From: Burkholderiales bacterium PBB1
GTDB lineage: Bacteria; Pseudomonadota; Gammaproteobacteria; Burkholderiales; Burkholderiaceae_C
NCBI GenBank assembly: GCA_002255905.1
Contig: NKIN01000002.1
Span: forward strand, 372,001 to 436,000
Direction of reading: 5' to 3'
DNA length: 64,000 bases
Part shown: positions 22,891 to 37,038 of the stretch, piece after piece
Numbering within the stretch: position 1 is the first letter of the stretch
How the letters are laid out: every line of letters begins with the position of its first letter
Notes under the pieces: generated by a model
What the model was told of the DNA's origin: nothing
Databases searched by the model: none
What the model saw: only the letters and a program-made list of their open reading frames with translations
Position numbers and translations under genes: made by a program

Positions 22891-23005
22891 GGCCCCCCAG
22901 TCGCTTTGCTCCTGCCCCCAAGGGGCGCCACCCAGCGGCCCGGCCAAGCCGGTTCCGCGGGCGTTGCTTGATGGGTGGCTTCGCTTCGCTTGCCCCGTTG
23001 GAGAG
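22889..23005. repeat. G+C-rich dispersed intergenic repeat, apparently full-length copy
   Basis: The spacer between the ATP-grasp and alpha-E genes is almost entirely a C-rich/G-rich element with CCCCCAAGGGGCGCC and the stem GGCCCGGCCAAGCCGG. Fragments of similar sequence recur near 31470 and 59180-59250. I know elements of this style from intergenic regions of Burkholderiales chromosomes. It may act as a hairpin that tunes operon mRNA. Confidence 0.5.
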
Positions 23006-23010
23006 TTCAG

Positions 23011-24018
23011 ATGCTGTCTAGGACTGCTGATCACCTTTTCTGGATGGCGCGCTACATGGAGCGCGCCGAGAACACCGCGCGCATGCTCGATGTCAATTAC
23101 CAGACCTCGCTGCTGCCGCAATCGGCCGATGCCGCCGAGCAGGGCTGGAAGGGCCTGCTCAGCATCTCCGAACTGAGTGGCGACTTCGCTTCGCGCTATG
23201 GCGCCGTGACTGCTCGCAACGTCATGGAGTACATGGTGAGCGACCCTCAGAACGGCTCGAGCATCCGCAGCTGCCTGATGGCCGCTCGCGAGAATGCCCG
23301 TGCGGTGCGCGGCACGCTGACCACCGAGGTCTGGGAAACACAGAACCAGACCTGGCTCGAGTTTCAGCGCATGGTCACCGACGGCGCGTTCCTGAAGGAC
23401 CCGGGGGCGGCCTTCGAATGGGTCAAGTTCCGCTCCCACCTGTCGCGTGGCGTGACGGTGGGCACCATGCTGCAGGATGACGCGTTCCACTTCCTTCGCA
23501 TCGGCAGCTTTCTCGAACGGGCCGACAACACCGCGCGGCTGCTCGACGTGAAGTTCCACGCGGTCGAGAGCGAATTCTTCGGTGGACCCGATGGCATGAG
23601 CCAATCACAGAGCCAGTCTCAAGGCGACGCGCCGGTCAGCGGCCGCGATGTCGAGTACGACTTCTATCACTGGTCGGCGATCCTGCGATCGGTCTCGGGC
23701 TTCGAGGTCTATCGCAAGGTCTACCGCAACGTGATCCGGCCCGAGAAGGTGGCCGAGTTGCTGATCCTGCGGCCGGACATGCCGCGTTCGCTGGCGGCCT
23801 GCACGCAGGAGGTGCTGTCGAACCTGACGATGATCGCCAACGAGCAGTCCAGCGAGACCCTGCGCCGCGCCGGCCGCCTGCGGGCCGATCTGCAATACGG
23901 TCGCATCGACGAGATCCTGGAGACCGGTCTGCATGCGTACCTGACGCAATTTCTCGAGCGCGTGGGCACGCTGGGCGTGGGCATCAGCCGCGATTTCCTG
24001 GTGCCGGTTCAGTCCTGA
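23011..24018 (+). CDS. Alpha-E domain protein (DUF403), amidoligase cluster
   Basis: A 335-residue all-helical protein of the alpha-E family. The start MLSRTADHLFWMARYMERAENTARMLD is the signature, repeated in weaker form at about residues 163-182 (FLRIGSFLERADNTARLLDVK), which suggests an internal duplication. The function is not established. Alpha-E proteins almost always accompany ATP-grasp and transglutaminase partners and are thought to assist the ligase or bind its product. GAGAG lies a few bases before the ATG. It follows the ATP-grasp gene after the repeat-filled 120-bp spacer. Confidence 0.92.
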   Translation: MLSRTADHLFWMARYMERAENTARMLDVNYQTSLLPQSADAAEQGWKGLLSISELSGDFASRYGAVTARNVMEYMVSDPQNGSSIRSCLMAARENARAVRGTLTTEVWETQNQTWLEFQRMVTDGAFLKDPGAAFEWVKFRSHLSRGVTVGTMLQDDAFHFLRIGSFLERADNTARLLDVKFHAVESEFFGGPDGMSQSQSQSQGDAPVSGRDVEYDFYHWSAILRSVSGFEVYRKVYRNVIRPEKVAELLILRPDMPRSLAACTQEVLSNLTMIANEQSSETLRRAGRLRADLQYGRIDEILETGLHAYLTQFLERVGTLGVGISRDFLVPVQS

Positions 24019-24112
24019 GTTTTCGATCCCGTTGTCGGTGGCAACGGCGTTCCTTCATCTGCTTGACGCTTTTCTTCGGCACACATCGCCCGTGCCCTCC
24101 CTGGAGTCCTGA

Positions 24113-27100
24113 ATGTCCATCCATGTCGCGCTGAACCATGTGACGCATTACCGCTACGACCGGCCCATCAACCTGGGCCCACAGGTCGTTCGCTTGCGTC
24201 CAGCGCCTCATTCGCGCACCCGCATCCTGAGCTACTCGATGCGGGTCGAGCCGGCCACGCATTTCATCAACTGGCAACAAGACCCGCAGTCGAACTACCT
24301 CGCCCGCCTGGTGTTCCCGGACAAGACCACCTCGTTTCGCATCGAGGTCGATCTGGTGGCCGAGATGTCGGTGCTCAATCCGTTCGACTTCTTCCTCGAA
24401 CCGTCGGCTGAGCACTATCCCTTCAAGTACGAGCCCGAGGTCGAGACCGAACTGACGCCTTATCTGGCGAAGGCCGAGGCCACGCCGCTGTTCCAGGCCT
24501 ACCTCGACGCCTGGCGCGAGCGCCTTGCCAGCAAGAAGACGCCGATGAACAACTTCCTGGTCGACGTGAACCAGCAGTTGCAAAAGGACATCGGCTACAC
24601 GATCCGCATGGAACCCGGTGTGCAGACGCCCGAGGAAACGCTGGTGAACAAGCTCGGCTCGTGCCGCGACACCGGCTGGCTGCTGGTGCAGCTGATGCGC
24701 CACCTCGGCGTGGCGGCGCGCTTCGTCTCGGGTTACCTGATCCAGCTGAAGAGCGACGTGAAATCGCTCGACGGCCCGAGCGGCACCGAGATCGATTTCA
24801 CCGATCTTCACGCGTGGTGCGAGGTGTTTCTGCCCGGCGCAGGCTGGATCGGCCTCGACCCCACGTCGGGCCTGCTGGCTGGCGAAGGCCACATCCCGCT
24901 GGCCTGCTCGCCCGACCCGTCGTCGGCGGCGCCGGTCAGCGGTGCGATCGACGAGTGCGAGACCGAGTTCGAGCACAGCATGAGCGTCACCCGGATCTGG
25001 GAGGCCCCGCGTGTCACCTTGCCGTACACCGACGCGCAATGGGAAGGCATCGAAGCGTTGGGGCACCGGGTCGATCTGGACCTGCGCCGCAACGATGTGC
25101 GACTCACGCAAGGCGGCGAGCCGACCTTCGTGTCGGTCGACGACCGTGATGGTGCCGAATGGAATACCGAGGCCATGGGCCCGACCAAGCGGCTGTTGAG
25201 CGCCGACCTGATGGACAAGCTGCGCCTGAAGTACGGCGACGGCGGCCTGCTGCACTACGGGCAGGGCAAGTGGTACCCCGGCGAGCAGCTGCCGCGCTGG
25301 TCGCTGAACCTGTACTGGCGCAAGGACCGCGAGCCGATCTGGACGCACCCTGAATTGTTCGCCAACGAGCGCAAGGATTACGAGGTCACCGACGCGCAGG
25401 CGCACAAGTTTCTGAGCGGCGTGGCGCGTCGCCTCGCGCTCGACCCGAAGTTCGTGTTCCCCGCGTACGAGGACACCTGGTACTACCTCTGGCGCGAACG
25501 CAAGCTGCCCACCAACGTCGATCCGTTCGACGCGCGGCTGTCCGATCCGATGGAGCGCGAGCGGCTGCGCAAGGTGTTCAGCCAGGGCCTGGAAAAGGTC
25601 GTGGGCCACGTGCTGCCCGTCGCTCGCGGCACGCTGGGCCAGCCTCGCTGGACCACCGGGCCGTGGTTCCTGCGTGCCGAGCGCTGCTACCTGGTGCCCG
25701 GCGATTCACCGCTGGGCTTCCGCCTGCCGCTGGACTCCCAGCCCTGGGCCAAGGAAGGCGACATGCCCTGGGTGTTGCCGGTCGATCAGACCCAGCCTTT
25801 CGCTCCGCTGCCACCCTACCGGCGGCTGCGCTTCGCGGCCACCGCGCCGAATGGCGCCTCCGAGGGTCACGGCGCATCGTCGGCGACAGCGTCTGCCAAC
25901 GGGTCGTCGGCGGGCTTTGCCGAGCGCTCGCGCGCGGCGCAAGGCCCTGACAAATCGGTGGCCAGCGCGCCCGCCAGCAGCCTGCGCGTGCCCGAGAAAT
26001 TCGAGTCGGCGGCCTGGATCAGCCGCACCGCGCTGTGCGCCGAGCCGCGCGGCGGTCGGCTCTATGTGTTCATGCCGCCGATGACCGCGCTGGAGGACTA
26101 CCTCGAGATCGTCGCAGCCGTCGAAGACACCGCCGTCGAGATGAAGCTGCCGCTGATTCTCGAAGGCTACGAACCGCCCCGTGATCCGCGCCTGTCCACG
26201 CTGCGCGTCACACCCGACCCAGGCGTCATCGAGGTCAACGTGCACCCGGCGCACAGCTGGGAGGAACTGGTCGATCAAACGACGCATCTCTATCAGAGCG
26301 CCCATGAAACCAGGCTCTCGACCGAGAAGTTCATGGTCGATGGCCGCCACACCGGCACCGGCGGCGGCAACCACTTCGTGCTCGGTGGCGCGACAGTGGC
26401 CGACTCTCCGTTCCTGCGCCGGCCCGATCTGCTGGCCAGCATGGTCGCCTACTGGCACAACCACCCGGCGCTCAGCTATTTGTTCTCGGGTCTGTTCGTC
26501 GGGCCGACCAGCCAGGCACCGCGTGTGGATGAAGCACGCAACGACTCGGTCTATGAAATCGAGGTGGCGTTCGCCGAGCTGCAGCGCGTCACCCGTGAGC
26601 AGGGCGACTATTGCCCGCCGTGGTTGATCGACCGCTTGCTGCGCAACCTGCTGATCGACGTGTCGGGCAACACACACCGCGCCGAGTTCTGCATTGACAA
26701 ACTCTATTCGCCCGACGGCCCGACCGGCCGGCTCGGACTGCTGGAAATGCGCGCCTTCGAGATGCCGCCGCACGCCCGCATGAGCCTGACACAGCAGCTG
26801 CTGATGCGTGCGCTGGTCTCGCGCTTCTGGAAGGAGCCGTACCGCCCGGCGCGCCTGAAGCGCTGGGGCACCGAACTGCACGATCGCTTCATGCTGCCGC
26901 ACTTCATCTCGCAAGACCTGAGCGATGTGATCGAGGAGCTGAACACCTTCGGCTACGCGATGAAGACCGACTGGTTCGCGCCGCATCTCAATTTCCGCTT
27001 TCCGCGCCTGGGTGACTTTGCGGTGCTGGGTGTCGAGGTTGAGTTGCGCCTGGCGCTCGAGCCCTGGCATGTGATGGGTGAGGAGGGCGCCTCCGGTGGC

Positions 27101-27550
27101 ACCGCACGCTACGTCGACTCGTCGGTCGAGCGGGTGCAACTGAAGGCGACCGGCCTGGTCGGTGACCGCCATGTGCTCACCTGCAACGGCCGGGTGGTGC
27201 CGATGCAGCCGACCGGCCAGGTGGGCGAGTTCGTCGGCGGGGTGCGCTACAAGGCGTGGAACCCGCCGTCGGCGTTGCACCCGACGATCGGGGTGCATGC
27301 CCCGCTGACGTTCGACCTGCTCGACACCTGGATGGGCCGCTCGATGGCCGGTTGCCAGTACCACGTCGCGCATCCCGGTGGTCGCAGCTACGACACCTTT
27401 CCGGTCAATGCCTTCGAGGCCGAGGCCCGTCGGCTGGCGCGCTTCTTCCGCACCGGTCATACGCCGGGCAAGATGCAGGTGCCCAAAGACGAGCGCAACC
27501 CGAACTACCCGTTCACCCTCGATCTGCGCCGAGCCACCAGCGCGTTCTGA
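24113..27550 (+). CDS. Large transglutaminase-like protein with DUF2126
   Basis: A 1145-residue two-part protein. The N-terminal third is a bacterial transglutaminase-like enzyme with an N-terminal beta domain (residues 1-80) and the papain-like triad Cys184 (GSCRDTGWL), His233 (DLHAWCEVF) and Asp249 (GLDPTSG). From about residue 320 the DUF2126 region runs to the C-terminus, with LTQGGEPTFVS, GKWYPGEQLPRW, HTGTGGGNHFVLGG and FEMPPHARM. The GGGNHFVLGG and acidic-rich segments resemble a glutamine-synthetase-like or ligase active site, in line with the proposed peptide modification. A Ser/Ala/Gly-rich linker lies at about residues 578-625. It is the third gene of the cluster. Confidence 0.92.
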   Translation: MSIHVALNHVTHYRYDRPINLGPQVVRLRPAPHSRTRILSYSMRVEPATHFINWQQDPQSNYLARLVFPDKTTSFRIEVDLVAEMSVLNPFDFFLEPSAEHYPFKYEPEVETELTPYLAKAEATPLFQAYLDAWRERLASKKTPMNNFLVDVNQQLQKDIGYTIRMEPGVQTPEETLVNKLGSCRDTGWLLVQLMRHLGVAARFVSGYLIQLKSDVKSLDGPSGTEIDFTDLHAWCEVFLPGAGWIGLDPTSGLLAGEGHIPLACSPDPSSAAPVSGAIDECETEFEHSMSVTRIWEAPRVTLPYTDAQWEGIEALGHRVDLDLRRNDVRLTQGGEPTFVSVDDRDGAEWNTEAMGPTKRLLSADLMDKLRLKYGDGGLLHYGQGKWYPGEQLPRWSLNLYWRKDREPIWTHPELFANERKDYEVTDAQAHKFLSGVARRLALDPKFVFPAYEDTWYYLWRERKLPTNVDPFDARLSDPMERERLRKVFSQGLEKVVGHVLPVARGTLGQPRWTTGPWFLRAERCYLVPGDSPLGFRLPLDSQPWAKEGDMPWVLPVDQTQPFAPLPPYRRLRFAATAPNGASEGHGASSATASANGSSAGFAERSRAAQGPDKSVASAPASSLRVPEKFESAAWISRTALCAEPRGGRLYVFMPPMTALEDYLEIVAAVEDTAVEMKLPLILEGYEPPRDPRLSTLRVTPDPGVIEVNVHPAHSWEELVDQTTHLYQSAHETRLSTEKFMVDGRHTGTGGGNHFVLGGATVADSPFLRRPDLLASMVAYWHNHPALSYLFSGLFVGPTSQAPRVDEARNDSVYEIEVAFAELQRVTREQGDYCPPWLIDRLLRNLLIDVSGNTHRAEFCIDKLYSPDGPTGRLGLLEMRAFEMPPHARMSLTQQLLMRALVSRFWKEPYRPARLKRWGTELHDRFMLPHFISQDLSDVIEELNTFGYAMKTDWFAPHLNFRFPRLGDFAVLGVEVELRLALEPWHVMGEEGASGGTARYVDSSVERVQLKATGLVGDRHVLTCNGRVVPMQPTGQVGEFVGGVRYKAWNPPSALHPTIGVHAPLTFDLLDTWMGRSMAGCQYHVAHPGGRSYDTFPVNAFEAEARRLARFFRTGHTPGKMQVPKDERNPNYPFTLDLRRATSAF

Positions 27551-27611
27551 GCGGTCCGAGGTCGTGGCGGCTCACGTATGACAATCGGTCGCATGAACAC
27601 GGTTGTCTGAC

Positions 27612-30107
27612 ATGTTGAGTCGCCTGCTGTCCGGCTACGCCGCGGTCGAAGGTCGCTACGATGAGCTGTTGTCGGCGCCGGGTGCGCCGCGCCCGCACTG
27701 GGACGCCTTCCTGCGCTCGCTGGCGGCGCGCGAGGGCAGCGAGGTCAGCGAAACCCTGGCGCTGATGGAGCGCGAGATCCGCGAGAACGGCATCACCTAC
27801 AACGTGTATGCCGATCCGAAGGGCGCCGACCGACCTTGGGAAGTGGACCCGCTGCCGCTGCTGCTGTCGGCTGCCGAATGGGACGAGATCTCGGCTGGCA
27901 TCGCCCAGCGTGCCGATCTGTTGAACCGTGTGCTGGGCGACATCTACGGCCCGCAGGAACTGCTGCGCACCGGGGCGATCCCGCCGTCGATCATCTTCGG
28001 GCACAGCGGCTACCTGCACCAGGTGCAGGGCATTCGCCCGCCGGGCGGCGTGCACCTGTTCAACTACGCGGCGGATCTCGCGCGCTCGCCCGACGGCCAC
28101 TGGTGGGTGGTCAACGACCGCACGCAGGCACCTTCAGGCGCGGGCTATGCGCTCGAGAACCGGCTGGTGGTGTCGCGTGTGTTCCCGCAGATGTTCAAGG
28201 AGCTGCATGTGCAGCACCTGGCCGCGTTCTTCGAGGCGTTGCGCGAATCGATGATGCGATGGGCGCCTAAGGATCACACCGATCGGGTGTTCGAGCGTGC
28301 CAATCCGCTGGTGGTGCTGCTGACACCAGGGCCCTACAACGAAACCTATTTCGAGCACGCGCTGCTGGCGCGTTACCTGGGTTTTCCGCTGGTCGAAGGC
28401 AGCGACCTCACAGTGCGCGACGGCTGCGTCTGGATGAAGACCGTCGAAGGCCTGAAGCGCGTCAGCGGCATCCTTCGACGTCAGGACGACGACTACTGCG
28501 ACCCGCTCGAGCTGCGCTCCGATTCGGCGCTCGGCATTCCCGGCCTGACCGATTGCGCACGCCGCGGCACGGTGTTGCTCGCCAATGCCCTGGGGTCGGG
28601 CGTGCTCGAATCCGGCGCCTTGCTGGGCTACCTGCCCAAGCTCAGTGAGCAACTGCTGGGCGAGCCTTTGCGATTGCCCTCCGTGGCCACCTGGTGGCTG
28701 GGCGAACCGGCGGCCCTCGACGACGCCTGGCGACGGCTCGACAAGCTGATCATCAAGCCACTGGAGCGCTCGGTGCGAGAGCCCGCACTGTTCGGCGCCG
28801 ACCTGTCGGCCGTGCAACGTGAAGCGCTGCGCGAACGGGTGGCCGCACGGCCGCAGCGCTATGTGGCACAGGAGTGGGTGCATGTCTCGCAAGCGCCGGT
28901 GCTCGAGGTGCGCAACGAGCCAGGTCGTGGCGAGCAGATGAGCTCGCGCACCGTCGGCCTGCGGGTGTTCGCGGTGGCCACGCCCAACGGCTACCACGTG
29001 CTGCCTGGCGGCCTGACCCGGGTGGCCGGCGACGACCATTCGCGCGTGATCGCGATGCAGCGTGGCGGCCGCTCGAAAGACACCTGGGTGCTGTCCGATG
29101 CGCCGATCAATGCCTCGTTCTCGTTGTTGAGCCGCACCGTCAAGCCCGAAGACCTGGTGGCTTCGCGCGCCAACGTGCCTTCGCGCGCAGCCGAGAACCT
29201 GTTCTGGTTCGGCCGCTACGGCGAGCGTTGCGACGCCAGTGCACGGCTGCTGCGGGTGGCCATCTCCGATGTGCTCGACGATTCGCGCGAGCCCAGTGAC
29301 GGCGTGCCACCCACGCTGATCCTCGCGCAGCGCTTCGGCCTGATCGATTCGGTCGAGCAGCCTGCCACCGACCTGCTGCGCGCGGCGACGCACCCTGACG
29401 AGGGTTTGAGCGAACGGCTCAAGCAACTGTCGCGCGTGGCCTTCAACCTGCGCGACCGGATGTCGGCCGACCACTGGCGCTCGCTGAACCAGCTGATCGC
29501 CGACCCGGTGTTCCAGCGCGGCCTGTCGTCGACCCACCTCGGGCTGCCGCTGGCGATGTCGTGGCTGGACAGGGCGGTGACCTCGATGACCACGCTGTCC
29601 GGCTTCGTGCTCGACGGCATGACACGCGGTGTGGGCTGGCGATTCCTGTCGATAGGCCGGCGGCTGGAGCGCTTGTCGACACTGTGCAATGTGCTTCAGG
29701 TCGCGACCCACGAAGGGCGCACGCACGGCCTCGACTGGCTGCTCGAATACGCCGACTCCACCGTCACCTACCGCTCTCGCTACCTGGTCGCACCGGAATG
29801 GCTGCCGGTGCTGGACCTGCTGCTGCGCGACGAGGTCAACCCGCGCTCGCTGGCCTTTCAGGTCAAGGGGCTAGCCGAGTACGTCGCCAAGCTGGAACTG
29901 AGCCACGGACGCTTTGCCAGCGACGTGCTGGCCCCGGCGCACCATGCGCTGCGCAACCTGTCCAGCGTCGACCTGCACCCCGAAAGCGAGGCCTTGGCCG
30001 AGGTGATCGGCGCGCTGCAGCGCGCCGCGCATGCGGTGTCAGATGAGCTGACGCTGAAGTTCTTCTCGCATGCGGCGTCGCGCAGCGTGTTGTCGCTGGT
30101 GGCCTGA
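27612..30107 (+). CDS. Fused circularly permuted ATP-grasp and alpha-E protein
   Basis: An 831-residue natural fusion. Residues about 1-500 are a second circularly permuted ATP-grasp unit (ENGITYNVYADPKG, VVLLTPGPYNETYFEHALLARYLG, RSDSALGIPGL, RGGRSKDTWVL). From about residue 523 an alpha-E domain starts with AENLFWFGRYGERCDASARLLRV. The two halves parallel the stand-alone genes upstream, so the cluster holds two ligase/alpha-E pairs, one split and one fused. The ATG at 27612 has no strong ribosome binding site. An 1-bp overlap (TGATG) couples it to the next gene. Confidence 0.93.
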   Translation: MLSRLLSGYAAVEGRYDELLSAPGAPRPHWDAFLRSLAAREGSEVSETLALMEREIRENGITYNVYADPKGADRPWEVDPLPLLLSAAEWDEISAGIAQRADLLNRVLGDIYGPQELLRTGAIPPSIIFGHSGYLHQVQGIRPPGGVHLFNYAADLARSPDGHWWVVNDRTQAPSGAGYALENRLVVSRVFPQMFKELHVQHLAAFFEALRESMMRWAPKDHTDRVFERANPLVVLLTPGPYNETYFEHALLARYLGFPLVEGSDLTVRDGCVWMKTVEGLKRVSGILRRQDDDYCDPLELRSDSALGIPGLTDCARRGTVLLANALGSGVLESGALLGYLPKLSEQLLGEPLRLPSVATWWLGEPAALDDAWRRLDKLIIKPLERSVREPALFGADLSAVQREALRERVAARPQRYVAQEWVHVSQAPVLEVRNEPGRGEQMSSRTVGLRVFAVATPNGYHVLPGGLTRVAGDDHSRVIAMQRGGRSKDTWVLSDAPINASFSLLSRTVKPEDLVASRANVPSRAAENLFWFGRYGERCDASARLLRVAISDVLDDSREPSDGVPPTLILAQRFGLIDSVEQPATDLLRAATHPDEGLSERLKQLSRVAFNLRDRMSADHWRSLNQLIADPVFQRGLSSTHLGLPLAMSWLDRAVTSMTTLSGFVLDGMTRGVGWRFLSIGRRLERLSTLCNVLQVATHEGRTHGLDWLLEYADSTVTYRSRYLVAPEWLPVLDLLLRDEVNPRSLAFQVKGLAEYVAKLELSHGRFASDVLAPAHHALRNLSSVDLHPESEALAEVIGALQRAAHAVSDELTLKFFSHAASRSVLSLVA

Positions 30108-31069
30108 TGTCGCAACAACAGAGTCAGCCGGGTCAGCAACAAGGGCAGCCGCAGGCCGCACCGCAGAGCCTGCCGCACGCCTGCTTCGACCGCTACACCG
30201 TCGAGCACGAGACGCGCTATGCGTACACCGCCCCGGTGTCGCAGTCATGGCAGCTGGGCCGGCTGACGCCGCGCGGCCTGCCCTGGCAACGGGTGCTGTC
30301 GCACAGCCTGCAGATCGACCCACCGCCCGACGAGCGGCACGAGGCACTCGACAGCTTCGGCAATTCGGTGTCGCACTTCGGGCTGCACGGCGCCCACCGC
30401 CAACTCCGGGTGCGCATGCAGTGCCAGGTCGAGGTGGGCGAGCGGCCGGCTGCCGACTTGATCGCTGCACTCACCGTCGACGCCGTGCGCGAAGCGCTGC
30501 GCAGACCGTATGGCGATGCCTGCGACCTGGACGCCGCGCGCATGGCTGAACCCACGCGGCTGGTGCCGCTGTCCGAAGCCGCGCGCCTGTATGCGGAACC
30601 CTCGCTGCAGCCCGATAGGCCCTGGTTCGAGGCACTGAGTGAGCTGACCCACCGCATCCACGCCGACTTCGAGTTCGATGCCGGCGCCACCACCGTCAGC
30701 ACTTCGGTCGACGAGGTGATGCAGCACCGGCGCGGCGTGTGCCAGGACTTCGCGCACCTGATGCTGGCCTGCCTGCGTGGTCACGGCTTGTCGGCGCGCT
30801 ACATGTCGGGCTATCTGCTCACCAACCCGCCACCCGGCATGCCGCGGCTGATGGGCGTCGATGCGTCGCACGCCTGGGTGGCCGCCTACTTGCCCGACCA
30901 CGGCTGGGTCGAGTTCGACCCCACCAACAACCAGCTCGCCGACCGCCGCTACATCACGCTGGCCTGGGGTGCCGACTTCGCCGACGTGGTGCCGCTGCGC
31001 GGCGTGATCCTTGGCGGCGGCACGATGCAGCGCATGGATGTGTCGGTGAGTGTGATTCCGCAGGGATGA
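30107..31069 (+). CDS. Transglutaminase-like cysteine protease, end of amidoligase cluster
   Basis: A 320-residue protein with a Gln-rich leader, a bacterial transglutaminase N-terminal domain (about 28-110) and a transglutaminase core with Cys212 (RRGVCQDFAHLML), His255 (DASHAWVAAYL) and Asp271 (EFDPTNN). Such proteins are predicted to act as peptidases or amidases that cleave or transfer isopeptide bonds made by the ATP-grasp partners. There is no signal peptide, so it is likely cytoplasmic. In related genomes the next gene is often the proteasome-like Anbu; here it is a DUF1653 gene. Confidence 0.92.
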   Translation: MSQQQSQPGQQQGQPQAAPQSLPHACFDRYTVEHETRYAYTAPVSQSWQLGRLTPRGLPWQRVLSHSLQIDPPPDERHEALDSFGNSVSHFGLHGAHRQLRVRMQCQVEVGERPAADLIAALTVDAVREALRRPYGDACDLDAARMAEPTRLVPLSEAARLYAEPSLQPDRPWFEALSELTHRIHADFEFDAGATTVSTSVDEVMQHRRGVCQDFAHLMLACLRGHGLSARYMSGYLLTNPPPGMPRLMGVDASHAWVAAYLPDHGWVEFDPTNNQLADRRYITLAWGADFADVVPLRGVILGGGTMQRMDVSVSVIPQG

Positions 31070-31609: not shown

Positions 31610-31906
31610 ATGTTCAGCCTCGTTTCATGGCCTCGCGTGTGCCGGCTGGGCATGCGATCAATGGCCACTCTGTACTCGCCGATGCCACCGAGCCTATCGC
31701 TGCGTGGGGCGCAGCGGCAGCCACCTGATGTGGCCGTGCCACGCGCTGCCATCAGCCATGAGGTTGATGGCGGCCCGGGGTGGTACGGCAGCAGCTGGGA
31801 GCTGGGTCGCGGGCTCGAGATTGCCGAGGCGCCCGATGCCGAAGCCGAGCTGACACTGTGGATCGAAGCCTGCCTGAACCCGCTGCCGACTACCGAGCCT
31901 GCTTGA
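31610..31906 (+). CDS. Small hypothetical protein with GWYGSSWELGRGLEI motif
   Basis: A 98-residue reading frame with AGGAG six bases before its ATG. The C-terminal part (GGPGWYGSSWELGRGLEIAEAPDAEAELTLWIEACL) resembles a motif I have seen in small uncharacterised betaproteobacterial proteins. The N-terminal half is basic and unremarkable. It overlaps the end of the convergent tgpA-mltB fusion gene by 17 bp. Function unknown; whether it is made is uncertain. Confidence 0.5.
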   Translation: MFSLVSWPRVCRLGMRSMATLYSPMPPSLSLRGAQRQPPDVAVPRAAISHEVDGGPGWYGSSWELGRGLEIAEAPDAEAELTLWIEACLNPLPTTEPA

Positions 31907-34900
31907 CCGCCTGCCCCAGCTCGATCACCGCCATCGCGTAGTAGCTCGACCAGTTGTAGCGGGTGATGGCGTAGAAGTTGGTGGTGCCGGCCACGTAGCT
32001 GGGCGCGTCCGGGCCGTTCTGTAGTTCGACCAGAGCCAGTTTCTGGCCGCTGTCCCCGTCAGCGATGGGCGGTGCGGTGGTACCGAATGCTGCGCCGTGG
32101 TCGATGAACTGCTGCGCGGTGAAGGTGGGCAGGATGTCGGGGCCGAGCAGCAAGGCGCGCTCGCTGGCATCGCTGGGCTCGGCCACCTCGTAGTGCGTGG
32201 GCAGGCCGCGCTGCCAGCCGAACTCGGCCAGGTAATGCGCCACGCTGCCGATTACGTCGGCCGCGCTGGCGTGCAGATCGATGTGGCCATCGCCATCGAA
32301 ATCCACCGCGTACTTGTTGACGCTGCTGGGCATGAACTGCGGCATGCCCAAAGCGCCCGCATAGCTGCCCTTGACGGCCAGCGGATCGTTGCCTTCGCGG
32401 TGGCTCAGCACCAGCAGTTGCTCGAGCTCGTCGCGGAAGAAGGCGCTGCGGTCCTTGCGCCCGGTCGGGAAGTCGAAGCCCAGCGTGGCCAATGCATCGA
32501 TCACGCGGTAGCTTCCCATGCGCTGGCCATACAGCGTCTCGACGCCGACGATGCCAACGACGATTTCCGGCGGCACGCCGTAGCGCTGCTCGGCCAGCGT
32601 CAGCCAGGCTTCATTCGCCTGCCAGAACGCCGTGCCGGCGGCGATGCGCCTGGGTTCAACGAAGCGCGCGCGGTAGGCCGCCCAGTTCTTGGCCGTGCCC
32701 GCCGGGGGCGGCATCACCGCCTTCACGATGCCGGGCACGAAGCGCGCCTGCGCCAACGCGGCCTGCACCGTGGCCACATCCAGCCCGTTGCGGGCAGCGA
32801 CATCGGCGCCGAACTGCATCAGGTCCTCGCGCCGGCCGTAGGTCACGGTGTCGGGGTCCTGGTCTGAGCGCACGGCCGTCTTACGGTGGCGGTGCTTGCG
32901 CGGTTGCACGCGCTTGTTCGGTGCGGTGGCAGCGGCTGTGACGCTCGTGTTGGTGGCGGCGGTGTTGGCAGGCGTGGTGGTCGCGGCGGCGTCACCGGGT
33001 GACACCGCGGCCACGAACAGCACCACACACAGCGCCTGGGCCAGCCGCGTCAGGCGTTGTGCCTGCGCCTTGAAGCGACGGGTAAGCGCGGGATCGGGTC
33101 GCGCTGTGGCGTGGGCGCTGTAGCGCTGTTCGTCCAGGCGATCGAGCAGTTCGGCCAGCGGCTCGCCCTGCGCGCCGAAGCGCTCGCGCACCCGTTGAGC
33201 CAGCGTGCGCGGGGCTTCATGCGCGGCTGCGCTGATGCCCAGGCGCTGGAGCGTGGCGCGCAGCCGCTGCATCTGCCGCACCCAGGGATCGACATGGTGG
33301 CGATCCCACCAGGCCCAGGCTGCTGCAGCCAGCGAGAGCAGGCCGAACGCACTGGCGAGCAACACGCCCAGGTCTTCCCAGGTGGGCGCGTTGAAGCCCA
33401 GTTGTTGAAGCAGTTCGAATTGCGAGCCGCGCGAATAGCTCAGCACCCATTGGTTCCAGCGGTTGTTCAGCGCTTCCAGTCCGTTGCGCAGACTGGCCAG
33501 CAACTGTGGGTTGAAGTTGTTCAGGGCGCCTGCGACCAGACCGGGCTTGGCCACCAGCGGGCGGCTGCTGAGCACCCGGTCGGGGGCGACGGCGGCCGTG
33601 GGGTCGGCGCGCACCCAGCCGACTCCGGGCTGCCAGTACTCGGCCCAGGCGTGGGCATAGCTCTGGCGCACGATGCGGTAGCCATCGACCGGGGTCGGGT
33701 CCAACCCCTGGTAGCCGGTGACCACCCGCGCCGGCACATCGAGCGCGCGCATCAGCACCACGAACGCCGCGGCGTAGTGCTCGCAGAACCCCAGCTTGCG
33801 GTCGAGCCAGAACTCGTCGATGGCACTGCGTGGGTTGTTTTCGCCGTACAGGCCCGGCGTCAGCGTGTAGCCGTAGCCGCCGGTTCGAATGTGGTCCATC
33901 AGCGCGGTCGCCAGTGTGGCGGCATCGGCCTCGGCGTAGCGCGGGTCCCTGCGCATGGCCGAGGCCCAGGCCAGCGTGCGGGGGTTGTAGCCGGGGGGCA
34001 GATCGATGTAGTCCTGCAGGCCGATCATGGGTTGGGTCGGGCCGTGCTGGAAGCGGGGGTAGGCCTCACCTCGAAAGCGCAGGCGCTGGAACAGCGAGCG
34101 GTCGGACACCCATTGCAGATCGTCGGTCTGGGTGAAGCTCAGGCCCTCGATCCGTGGCGCTTGCGGGCTGGCCTCGAGCAAGGGCAGCACGGCGAGCCGT
34201 GTCGGCTCGAGCGTCATCTCGTAGCGGATGGGTGTGCCCTGGACCCTCAATTCGGCGCGCGGTGTCATCACCGCCGGGAACCCCGGCTTCTGGGGTGTCC
34301 AGTCGCGCCCGTCGAAATGACCCAGCACCGGCCCGCGGAAATAGGTCTCCTGCGGCGATGGCGGCGCACCATCGAATCGGATGCGCAGCGCTACGCTGTC
34401 GTCCTGAGCGAGTGCGGCCACCGTGCCCATGCTCATCACGTTGGACAGCCCAGTGCCCGAGAAGCCGTCTTGCGGCACCCCCCACAGCGGCCCCACGCGC
34501 GGGAACAGCACGAACAGCAGCACCATCAGTGGCGCCCCCAGCGCGGCCGTCTTGCCGGCCAGCGCCGCAGCGGTGCGCAGGCTGGGTGTACCGGCAGGCA
34601 TGTGGGCCAGCACCAGCGCCGTCAGCAGGCCCCAGATCGACAGCAACATCATCGCGGCCACGCCCAGGCTCTGCGAATACAGGAAATGCGTCAGGATCAG
34701 GAAGAAGCCGAGGAAGAACACCACGAAGGCGTCGCGTCGGGCCCGCAACTCCAGTGTTTTCAAGGCCATCAGCGCCACGGCCATCGTGACGCCGGGCTCC
34801 TTGCCCAGCAGCGAACCGAACGACCAGTAGGTGAGGCTGGCCGCCACCACCAGCACCACCACCAGCACCGAGCGGCCTGGCAGCGCTGCGCCGGCCAGCG

Positions 34901-35102
34901 CCAGCCGAGCCCGCCACAGCAGCACGCCGCCAGTGAGCACCGAGCACCAGGCGGGCAGGTGGCTCAGGTGCGGCAGCGATGTCCAGCCGATCACGATCAG
35001 CAGGAACAACGTGTCGCGTGCCTCGCGCGGCAGGTGCGACCAGCCCGGCCAGCCGAGGCGCCGGGCCACGGGCAGGGGGTCGATCGGCATGCGGGCGTCC
35101 AT
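31890..35102 (-). CDS. TgpA-like transmembrane transglutaminase fused to an MltB-type lytic murein transglycosylase
   Basis: One open frame of 1070 residues joins two enzymes normally made separately. Residues about 20-190 form the TgpA/DUF3488 membrane region. The transglutaminase core has Cys440 (GFCEHYAAAFV), His484 (SYAHAWAEYW) and Asp500 (RADPTAA). A membrane span near 580-600 and a DUF4129-like cytoplasmic tail follow (LAQRVRERFG, RLDEQRYSAH). At about 683-706 a hydrophobic stretch ending in GDAAA looks like the old MltB signal peptide. The MltB domain then runs to the end with catalytic Glu855 (GVETLYG), GALGMPQFMPSS and DFDGDGHIDLH. By topology the MltB part would lie in the periplasm. 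No stop and no ATG occurs at the junction. It is the third gene of the moxR-DUF58-tgpA operon. The ATG at 35090 is an alternative start. Confidence 0.88.
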   Translation of the reverse strand: MDARMPIDPLPVARRLGWPGWSHLPREARDTLFLLIVIGWTSLPHLSHLPAWCSVLTGGVLLWRARLALAGAALPGRSVLVVVLVVAASLTYWSFGSLLGKEPGVTMAVALMALKTLELRARRDAFVVFFLGFFLILTHFLYSQSLGVAAMMLLSIWGLLTALVLAHMPAGTPSLRTAAALAGKTAALGAPLMVLLFVLFPRVGPLWGVPQDGFSGTGLSNVMSMGTVAALAQDDSVALRIRFDGAPPSPQETYFRGPVLGHFDGRDWTPQKPGFPAVMTPRAELRVQGTPIRYEMTLEPTRLAVLPLLEASPQAPRIEGLSFTQTDDLQWVSDRSLFQRLRFRGEAYPRFQHGPTQPMIGLQDYIDLPPGYNPRTLAWASAMRRDPRYAEADAATLATALMDHIRTGGYGYTLTPGLYGENNPRSAIDEFWLDRKLGFCEHYAAAFVVLMRALDVPARVVTGYQGLDPTPVDGYRIVRQSYAHAWAEYWQPGVGWVRADPTAAVAPDRVLSSRPLVAKPGLVAGALNNFNPQLLASLRNGLEALNNRWNQWVLSYSRGSQFELLQQLGFNAPTWEDLGVLLASAFGLLSLAAAAWAWWDRHHVDPWVRQMQRLRATLQRLGISAAAHEAPRTLAQRVRERFGAQGEPLAELLDRLDEQRYSAHATARPDPALTRRFKAQAQRLTRLAQALCVVLFVAAVSPGDAAATTTPANTAATNTSVTAAATAPNKRVQPRKHRHRKTAVRSDQDPDTVTYGRREDLMQFGADVAARNGLDVATVQAALAQARFVPGIVKAVMPPPAGTAKNWAAYRARFVEPRRIAAGTAFWQANEAWLTLAEQRYGVPPEIVVGIVGVETLYGQRMGSYRVIDALATLGFDFPTGRKDRSAFFRDELEQLLVLSHREGNDPLAVKGSYAGALGMPQFMPSSVNKYAVDFDGDGHIDLHASAADVIGSVAHYLAEFGWQRGLPTHYEVAEPSDASERALLLGPDILPTFTAQQFIDHGAAFGTTAPPIADGDSGQKLALVELQNGPDAPSYVAGTTNFYAITRYNWSSYYAMAVIELGQAVKQAR

Positions 35103-35110
35103 GCGCGTGC

Positions 35111-36103
35111 TCAGGCCTGCCACAGCGCCAGCGCCTGCAGGCCCTGCTGTCGATGCGCATCGCCCTGGCCGATGTCGATCTCGCAACCGGGCAGGCTCAA
35201 GCCCCAGGCTGCGTCGCGCCGGTCGGCCTCGAGGACCCAGGCCGTCAGGCGCGACAGCCTCGCCTCGGCATCGCCCTGGCCGCCCAGCTGCCAATCGAGC
35301 CAGAGTTGCTGCTGGCTGCGTGTGCTGCTGTCGCGGCTGACCAGTTCACCGCTGCTCGCCATGGCCTGCGCCGACCGCTTCCACGCGACGCTCTTCAGCG
35401 GATCGCCCCGCCGATACAAACGGATGCCCTCGAAATCGCCGCTGCTGCTGGCGTGCGCACGCACCCCACGGCCCGACACGATGCGCGCCGGTGGCAAGGG
35501 ACTGGCCGGCCGCTCGGGTCGGGGGTAGACCAGCAGCGTGCTCGCGGGGTGCCACACGGCCCACGCGCGAAACAGACCGAGCGGGAACCTCGTTTCGGCG
35601 ATCACGGTGGGCAGGCGGTGCTGTCCCCGCGTGGCCGGCACGAAGCCGAGGTGCAGCACCGCCTGGCCGCCCGCGGGCACATCGGTGTAGCTGAGCGTCC
35701 TGACCTCGCGCTCGTCCAGGCGCAAGCCCATACCCACGCCATGGCGGGTGCCCTTGGGGCTGGACAGCACGACGTCGAGCAACGCGGTGTCGCCGGCGAA
35801 GGCTGGCGCGAGCGGTCGCAGGTGCAGGGTCAGGCCGCGCAGGGTGTTGTGCGTCATGTGCATCGACACGACGCCGCTGCCGGTCAGCAAGAAGGTGAGC
35901 ACGTAGCCCAGGTTGAGCTGGTAGTTGATCGATGCGATCAGCAGCACGCCGAGCGTGAAGCAGAACAGCATGCCGCCGCGGGTGGGCAGGATGTAGACAT
36001 TGCGCTGGGTGAGCAGCAGGCTGTCGGTGCGGGGCGAGCGGGCCTGCCACCAGGCATCGAGCCGGCGATGCAGGGGGCCGCGGGCCGCTGCCAGCAGGCT
36101 CAC
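35111..36103 (-). CDS. DUF58 domain protein of the MoxR/TgpA operon
   Basis: A 330-residue protein with two adjacent hydrophobic helices near the N-terminus (MLFCFTLGVLLIASINYQLNLGYVLTFLLTG), then a soluble region ending in the DUF58 signature DFEGIRLYRRGDPLKSVAWKRSA. DUF58 proteins resemble von Willebrand A domains and work with MoxR AAA+ ATPases, perhaps as membrane chaperone assemblies. The GTG start at 36103 overlaps the moxR stop (GTGA). It ends 8 bp before the tgpA-mltB start, so the three genes are one operon. Confidence 0.88.
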   Translation of the reverse strand: MSLLAAARGPLHRRLDAWWQARSPRTDSLLLTQRNVYILPTRGGMLFCFTLGVLLIASINYQLNLGYVLTFLLTGSGVVSMHMTHNTLRGLTLHLRPLAPAFAGDTALLDVVLSSPKGTRHGVGMGLRLDEREVRTLSYTDVPAGGQAVLHLGFVPATRGQHRLPTVIAETRFPLGLFRAWAVWHPASTLLVYPRPERPASPLPPARIVSGRGVRAHASSSGDFEGIRLYRRGDPLKSVAWKRSAQAMASSGELVSRDSSTRSQQQLWLDWQLGGQGDAEARLSRLTAWVLEADRRDAAWGLSLPGCEIDIGQGDAHRQQGLQALALWQA

Positions 36104-37038
36104 GGCAGCGCGGTCGCTTCGATCATCGCGCGCACCTGTTCGGTACGGCCCCGACCGGCGCTGGCCACCGGCACGAGGCGGTGTGCGATGGTCTGCACCA
36201 GGATCGCCTGGATGTCGTCCGGCGCCACATGGGTGCGCCGATCCAGCAGCGCATGCGCCTTGGCCGCGCGCAGCACCGCGATGCCTGCGCGTGGGCTCAG
36301 GCCCTCGACAAACCAGGCGCCGGAGCGGGTCGCTGCGATCAGCGCCTGCAGGTAGTCGAGCAGTGCCGGCGACGCATGCACGGCCAGCACCGCGCGCTGG
36401 GCCTCGATCAGCTGCTCGGGCGTCATCACCGGCTGCAGCTGCTGCACGGCGTCGCGCCGGTCTGCACCGGCCAGCAGTTCGCGCTCGCTGGCGCGGTCGG
36501 GGTAGCCCAGCGTGATGCACATCAGAAAGCGGTCGAGCTGTGACTCGGGCAGCGCGTAGGTGCCCAGCTGGTCGCTCGGGTTCTGTGTCGCGATGACGAA
36601 GAAGGGCCGGGGCAGGGCGCGTGTTTCGCCCTCGATGCTCACCTGCTGCTCCTCCATCGCCTCGAGCAGCGCGCTTTGCGTGCGGGGCCCGGCGCGGTTG
36701 ATTTCGTCGGCCAGCAGGACCTGTGCGAACACCGGACCGGGGTGGAACACAAAGGCTTCCTTTGAGCGCTCATAGACGCTGACGCCGATCAGGTCGGTGG
36801 GCATCAGGTCGGCGGTGAACTGCACGCGCGAAAAGCGCAGCCCCAGCGACACCGACAGCGCATGCGCGAGGGTGGTCTTGCCCACGCCAGGCACGTCCTC
36901 GATCAACAGGTGGCCGCCGGCCAGCAGGCAGGCCACGCAGTCACGGATCTGCGGTCGTTTGCCCACGATGATCGTGCTAATCTGGTCGATCAGCCGCGTG
37001 AGGTCTTCGGACAGGTGGGGGATCGGCACAGCGCTCAT
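36100..37038 (-). CDS. MoxR-family AAA+ ATPase
   Basis: A 312-residue AAA+ ATPase of the MoxR family. Walker A is DVPGVGKTTLA, Walker B VLLADEINRAGPRTQSALLEAMEE, sensor 1 FFVIATQNPSDQLGTYALPE, and the C-terminal lid carries GLSPRAG. Such ATPases are thought to remodel or activate partner proteins with DUF58/VWA companions. First gene of the operon with DUF58 and the TgpA-MltB fusion. It is divergent from the deacetylase gene with 48 bp between starts. Confidence 0.92.
   Translation of the reverse strand: MSAVPIPHLSEDLTRLIDQISTIIVGKRPQIRDCVACLLAGGHLLIEDVPGVGKTTLAHALSVSLGLRFSRVQFTADLMPTDLIGVSVYERSKEAFVFHPGPVFAQVLLADEINRAGPRTQSALLEAMEEQQVSIEGETRALPRPFFVIATQNPSDQLGTYALPESQLDRFLMCITLGYPDRASERELLAGADRRDAVQQLQPVMTPEQLIEAQRAVLAVHASPALLDYLQALIAATRSGAWFVEGLSPRAGIAVLRAAKAHALLDRRTHVAPDDIQAILVQTIAHRLVPVASAGRGRTEQVRAMIEATALP

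Follow-up and report, generated by a model that had tools for sequence, protein, structure and literature searches.

A tgpA gene continued in frame by mltB through an internal signal-peptide-like segment in Burkholderiales bacterium PBB1 and its relatives

Results

A single open frame encodes TgpA and MltB

The DNA analyzed here, referred to as the window, comprises 64,000 nucleotides of contig NKIN01000002.1 from Burkholderiales bacterium PBB1 (assembly GCA_002255905.1, positions 372,001 to 436,000). On its minus strand, one open reading frame extends from position 35102 to 31890 and encodes 1070 amino acids without an internal stop codon, joining a complete TgpA-type transglutaminase to a complete MltB lytic transglycosylase (Table 1). 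An uninterrupted frame with both proteins had been proposed in a preliminary description of the locus, which did not give its strand, and our analysis bears this out. The N-terminal half contains a TgpA_N domain followed by a transglutaminase core, both scoring above the Pfam cut-off, and its residues 202-511 match the structures PDB 6g49 and 6g4h of a protein-glutamine gamma-glutamyltransferase, which we take to be the TgpA protein PA2873 of Pseudomonas aeruginosa. The C-terminal half reaches 324.1 bits with the NCBIfam model TIGR02282 (cut-off 281.4) and matches several MltB-type structures, including PDB 4anr and 1d0k, with Glu855 aligning to the glutamate of the GVET motif in 4anr. The catalytic residues Cys440, His484, Asp500 and Glu855, as well as the sequence GDAAA (residues 703-707), were found at the positions previously assigned to them. 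The DUF4129-like tail of the TgpA half, part of the same description, is present as a match, yet only a marginal one that remains below the curated cut-off. A Pfam match in a fragment of the linker, likewise under its cut-off, was set aside as chance.

Table 1. Features of the fused gene and its upstream neighbors. Residue numbers refer to the fused protein.
Feature	Position	Strand	Basis or remark
Fused tgpA::mltB gene	31890..35102	-	ATG at 35102, stop codon 31890-31892; same fusion in relatives
TgpA_N (PF11992), residues 34-350	34053..35003	-	Pfam, 223 bits
Transglut_core (PF01841), residues 396-501	33600..33917	-	Pfam
Catalytic triad Cys440, His484, Asp500	33783-33785, 33651-33653, 33603-33605	-	Position check
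Last TgpA membrane helix, residues 578-596	33315..33371	-	Hydropathy only, 1.96 over 19 residues
DUF4129-like tail, residues 612-666	33105..33269	-	PF13559, 21.1 bits, cut-off 24.8
Codon 685	33048..33050	-	ACG in window genome; ATG in 2 of 8 fused genus genomes
Internal signal-peptide core, residues 690-700 (ALCVVLFVAAV)	33003..33035	-
A-x-A motif, residues 705-707	32982..32990	-	Predicted signal peptidase I site after Ala707
Fast-evolving linker, residues 708-745	32868..32981	-	Ratio of nonsynonymous to synonymous substitution rates (dN/dS) 0.44 for residues 716-745
MltB catalytic domain SLT_2 (PF13406), residues 759-1064	31911..32828	-	Glu855 at 32538-32540
Upstream gene	35111..36055	-	Place of PA2874; start uncertain
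MoxR-type ATPase gene, AAA_3 and AAA_lid_2 matches	36148..36912	-	Pfam

The fusion recurs in three lineages of the family

Among the 15 genomes of the window's genus, eight carry the two halves fused across the junction, either complete (G000, G001, G004, G005, G006 and G014) or cut by a contig end (G012 and G013), whereas five possess two separate genes (G007-G011) and two contain fragments unable to tell (G002 and G003). A scan of species genomes found 128 relatives, and the 80 loci kept from it comprise 6 fused loci, all in metagenome-assembled records, 6 with a tgpA match only and 68 with separate genes. The contigs of the 6 fused loci agree in length with those of G001, G004, G005, G006, G013 and G014, and one locus with only a tgpA match (L039) agrees in the same way with G012. 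At the family level (250 genomes from 126 genera), at least seven genomes showed an unbroken match to both halves among the matches listed, namely three of the window's genus, G015 of genus g2, and G036, G149 and G226 of genus g23. G015 is the sole genome of g2. In g23, the fusion is present in 9 of 11 genomes, eight of them with a readable junction and the ninth (G654) with the TgpA tail read through MltB at a contig edge; the fusion state of the other two (G649 and G653) was unreadable. The fusion thus occurs in a subset of uncultured relatives of Rubrivivax and Rhizobacter. No further unbroken match to both halves was listed beyond the window genome among 399 genomes of the order (27 genomes with a match at 1e-120), nor was a further fusion found among the matches listed for 370 genomes of the class, of which 153 matched at 1e-75; due to these strict cut-offs, both searches leave room for more cases. 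In most relatives read, tgpA and mltB are separate neighbors, as the preliminary description had stated. The search among relatives that it proposed, with hits in the window's genus and two other genera, contradicts its statement that no such fusion is known.

The junction is translated in frame and weakly constrained

In the five sister genomes of the genus with separate genes, an R-L motif is followed by 10-14 further residues before tgpA ends. The earliest mltB ATG is placed -1 to +11 nucleotides relative to the first base of this gene end, the tgpA stop codon, and in another frame. In the fused clade, both this stop codon and the mltB ATG have been lost, and the TgpA tail continues directly into the old signal-peptide core. 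Insertions and deletions are absent from residues 661-710 in the eight fused genus genomes. Third codon positions are the most variable in each segment tested across the junction, with differences at codon positions 1, 2 and 3 of 0.171, 0.080 and 0.441 for residues 661-689 and of 0.339, 0.141 and 0.419 for residues 690-707. Estimates of dN/dS from six complete sequences of the genus amount to 0.10 (residues 20-560), 0.14 (561-689), 0.43 (690-715), 0.44 (716-745) and 0.16 (746-1070); even at the junction, the ratio stays below 1. The open junction is more than a chance product, because it recurs in 8 of 15 genomes, is free of insertions and deletions and varies most at third codon positions.

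For comparisons across a wider range of relatives, we used the 114 loci containing both halves that passed score filters and did not share a TgpA start with another row. The counts of 94 separate and 16 distinct fused rows given below exclude L020-L023, which are second loci of genes counted elsewhere; L012 belongs to the eight-row genus alignment and not to the 16 fused rows. In separate pairs, the mltB ATG is located at most 60 nucleotides from the tgpA stop codon in 65 of 86 rows. In 24 of the 94 separate rows, the mltB frame opens directly after the tgpA stop codon in the same frame (L040, L042, L044, L045, L053, L055, L082, L105, L109, L115-L118, L120-L122 and others), so that one base change or stop codon readthrough would yield a fusion.

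A FastTree phylogeny of 108 TgpA and MltB sequences, calculated with the junction excluded and omitting L020-L023, L126 (ambiguous base) and L143 (partial), required three changes between the separate and fused states. The fused rows of the window's genus group in a clade that lies within the unfused members of that genus, those of g23 form another, and G015 stands apart. Three changes were also obtained in a tree of 40 hand-chosen rows (all 15 fused, four unfused genus members and 21 others), in which the most strongly supported branches by themselves still require two or more. A constraint uniting the fused rows of this tree in one clade was rejected (approximately unbiased test, p-AU 1.8e-60), and with it a common origin of the fused genes. 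The exact place of the g23 clade is unsure due to its long stem and the unusual composition of most of its rows. Judged from these trees, the fusion seems to have evolved about three times in the family. The link between tgpA and mltB is older than the fusion.

Signal-peptide features persist inside the fused chain

The MltB half has no N-terminal signal of its own; its signal-like segment is internal, with no usual start codon between residues 639 and 692 in the window genome. As judged by simple scores, the window sequence shows the features expected of a polyprotein processed by signal peptidase, with a basic flank (net charge +3 before the core), a short hydrophobic core (hydropathy 3.19 over 11 residues) and small residues at positions -3 and -1 (A-x-A). 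Ala705 and Ala707 are invariant in all eight fused genus genomes and make up two of the four invariant columns between residues 690 and 734, a coincidence with a probability of ~0.6% by simple counting, although this figure is post hoc and concerns an alanine-rich region. Overall, a -3/-1 motif is present in 14 of the 16 distinct fused rows, scored as A-x-A in 13 and as a weaker form in one, and the 94 separate rows split into 79 with A-x-A and 15 with a weaker motif. The best hydropathy over 11 residues is indistinguishable between fused and separate rows (median 2.38 vs 2.42, p 0.86), whereas over 19 residues it is lower in the fused rows (1.46 vs 1.75, p 0.0015). Over 19 residues, all 16 last TgpA helices have values of at least 1.6, as do 66 of 94 separate signals and 4 of 16 fused cores; given the large share of separate signals, this measure separates signals from anchors poorly. 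No lipobox was seen by eye in the fused rows. Among separate mltB genes, several (L046, L104, L128, L147 and L152) have signals with a lipobox-like IAAC sequence, again by eye, suggesting that their products are lipoproteins.

Neighboring genes

The two genes upstream of the fusion had been assigned to a moxR-DUF58-tgpA system. For the more distant one, this fits the AAA_3 match of its product, which we take to be MoxR and whose bpMoxR score of 26.9 bits falls just short of the cut-off of 27. The middle gene looks DUF58-like by eye, but had no Pfam or NCBIfam match and was not listed in a genome-wide DUF58 search, leaving this part of the assignment without a family match. In P. aeruginosa, the cluster has the order PA2875-2874-2873 (PMC3507681; here and below, the statements taken from this paper refer to excerpts of its text).

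Convergent with the fused gene, a plus-strand cluster at 22975-31069 encodes an Alpha-E protein, a DUF2126 protein with a transglutaminase domain, an ATP-grasp protein with Alpha-E and a transglutaminase; its ATP-grasp is circularly permuted. A second lytic transglycosylase, MltB_2-like, is encoded outside the window in the same genome (L002:1501-2301), with the searched fragment scoring below the family cut-off.

Discussion

Our results identify a gene, recurrent among relatives of Burkholderiales bacterium PBB1, in which tgpA runs in frame into mltB and the former MltB signal peptide has become internal. We propose, with a probability of roughly 0.6, that its product is a secretory polyprotein, a single chain that signal peptidase I probably cleaves after Ala707 to yield TgpA and MltB. 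In this process, the neighboring genes, once joined in frame, would give rise to a single chain whose TgpA part threads its helices into the membrane and exposes the transglutaminase domain to the periplasm. The topology predicted for TgpA has five helices followed by a large periplasmic domain and then a sixth helix (PMC3507681), so that its tail would be back in the cytoplasm. The old signal peptide could then take the basic TgpA tail as its n-region and send the MltB half across the membrane again in an N-in/C-out orientation, in line with the basic stretch ahead of residue 690 and the absence of charge immediately following residue 707. That the retained segment would return the chain to the periplasm had been suggested before and is supported by our analysis. 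Cleavage would release a membrane-bound TgpA of ~707 amino acids and a free, soluble periplasmic MltB of ~363 amino acids in a ratio of 1:1. According to excerpts of a study in Escherichia coli, overexpression of free periplasmic MltB lowers cell density through its activity, with cultures later regrowing (PMC10139938), and the authors of the TgpA study suggest that harm may come from expressing tgpA out of balance (PMC3507681). Since an excess of MltB and unbalanced TgpA may thus both do damage, coupling their amounts is a plausible benefit, although the fusion could also be nearly neutral.

The preliminary description left open whether the MltB half is cut free or remains tethered, and the A-x-A motif and short core fit cutting somewhat better. 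Without cleavage, the core would serve as an extra membrane helix and keep MltB next to the transglutaminase domain at the inner membrane, an arrangement that the description had put first and that we consider less likely. It would agree with the hydropathy of the window core (residues 690-708), which at 1.76 over 19 residues is among the four fused cores reaching 1.6, and with the sisters L142 and L159, which lack the canonical residue at -3, having a proline in its place. However, the window value by itself is no argument for an anchor, because most separate signals reach 1.6 as well; moreover, 12 of the 16 fused cores stay below this value, the fused cores are less hydrophobic over this length than the N-terminal signals of separate MltB proteins, and neither Ala705 nor Ala707 varies within the genus, although the linker drifts. 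Several further observations weigh against cleavage by signal peptidase I. The motif scored as A-x-A in L154 sits early, with G-Q-A as the likelier site, an A-x-A could occur by chance in so alanine-rich a linker, and the retained signal features may reflect plain inheritance.

A separate MltB might still be translated from an internal start, making the fusion incidental, but this explanation appears improbable overall. In the window genome, where internal initiation had been named as a way to obtain two proteins, the codons between 639 and 692 include no ATG, GTG or TTG. The codon-685 ATG of two fused genus genomes precedes a good signal peptide, and a methionine of two unfused sister mltB genes aligns at position 684, one codon away; in the other six, codon 685 reads ACG, GCG, ACA or GCA. 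Three fused genus genomes have an ATG at codon 691 with a Shine-Dalgarno-like run of 4-5 bases upstream, but a start at this position would leave almost no n-region. More generally, 80 of 94 separate rows but only 2 of 16 fused ones have an ATG no more than 20 residues ahead of the core; for a limit of 30 residues, the counts are 86 of 94 and 5 of 16, respectively. At a limit of 40 residues, the fused count rises to 10 of 16 (86 of 94 separate) because of genus g23, in which all eight distinct rows have an in-frame ATG within this distance, a point that also speaks against a polyprotein in this genus. All nine g23 loci examined carry such an ATG 26-38 residues before the core. The recurrent codon was seen in genomes G036, G149, G226, G647, G648, G650, G651, G652 and G654 (L143, L154-L161 and L164). 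No Shine-Dalgarno-like run precedes these codons, a test of little power given that runs of at least four bases occur at only 6 of 86 separate mltB starts; as these genes mostly lack strong ones, such runs were dropped as a test of internal starts. The recurrent g23 ATG may be due to chance, a remnant or a live start, and, based on these patterns, separate translation of MltB is unlikely in the window genome and possible in g23. An assembly or sequencing error as the source of the fusion, a concern raised early on, has a negligible probability. While several fused records are metagenome assemblies, eight genus genomes agree, seven of them in records from several accession series; their frame is intact, their codons are constrained, and the same fusion exists in two other genera. 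The fusion is real.

Its parts are ordinary members of known families. Like PA2873, the fused protein combines TgpA_N with a transglutaminase core and a Cys-His-Asp triad, and its gene follows two others, as PA2873 follows two co-transcribed genes; PA2873, by contrast, ends after the tail, at 688 amino acids, where the fused chain continues with a signal peptide and MltB (PMC3507681). As in MltB/Slt35 (4anr and 1d0k), the whole catalytic domain is present, including the glutamate of GVET. E. coli MltB is a lipid-anchored outer-membrane protein according to excerpts of PMC10139938, whereas the fused MltB has an internal signal and, by eye, no lipobox. The tgpA-mltB pairs of Sphaerotilaceae and Comamonadaceae share the same genes, order and signal-core hydropathy, but remain two genes. 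A comparable layout is known from the cytochrome b/c1 precursor (fbcH) of Bradyrhizobium, a membrane protein joined to a periplasmic protein by an internal cleavable signal, whose cutting has been shown. FbcH belongs to a respiratory complex and is composed of unrelated proteins, and for the tgpA::mltB product we infer cutting from its signal features. Our literature search found no description of an internal-signal precedent of the fbcH type, including in the excerpts of PMC6256036, which also counts against the proposed cleavage, and no report of a TgpA or MltB fusion in the open-access literature. As far as we found, the arrangement is new, and so are its recurrence and its internal signal.

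Gene fusion is often taken as a sign that two proteins work together. The parallel fusion of tgpA and mltB provides comparative evidence for TgpA acting with peptidoglycan cleavage. The discoverers of TgpA describe it as essential in P. aeruginosa and only suggest a role in the cell wall (PMC3507681). The fused genes also offer a natural test of whether signal peptidase I matures polyproteins that start with a polytopic membrane protein. It is conceivable, although we hold this broader view only tentatively, at slightly less than even odds, that the tgpA-mltB pair gave rise to natural secretory polyproteins about three times within a single bacterial family, with signal peptidase I, rather than a dedicated protease, releasing two envelope enzymes from one polytopic precursor. 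If true, a transglutaminase that may be essential and a wall-cutting enzyme that could be lethal would be tied to equal output at one insertion site in these bacteria.

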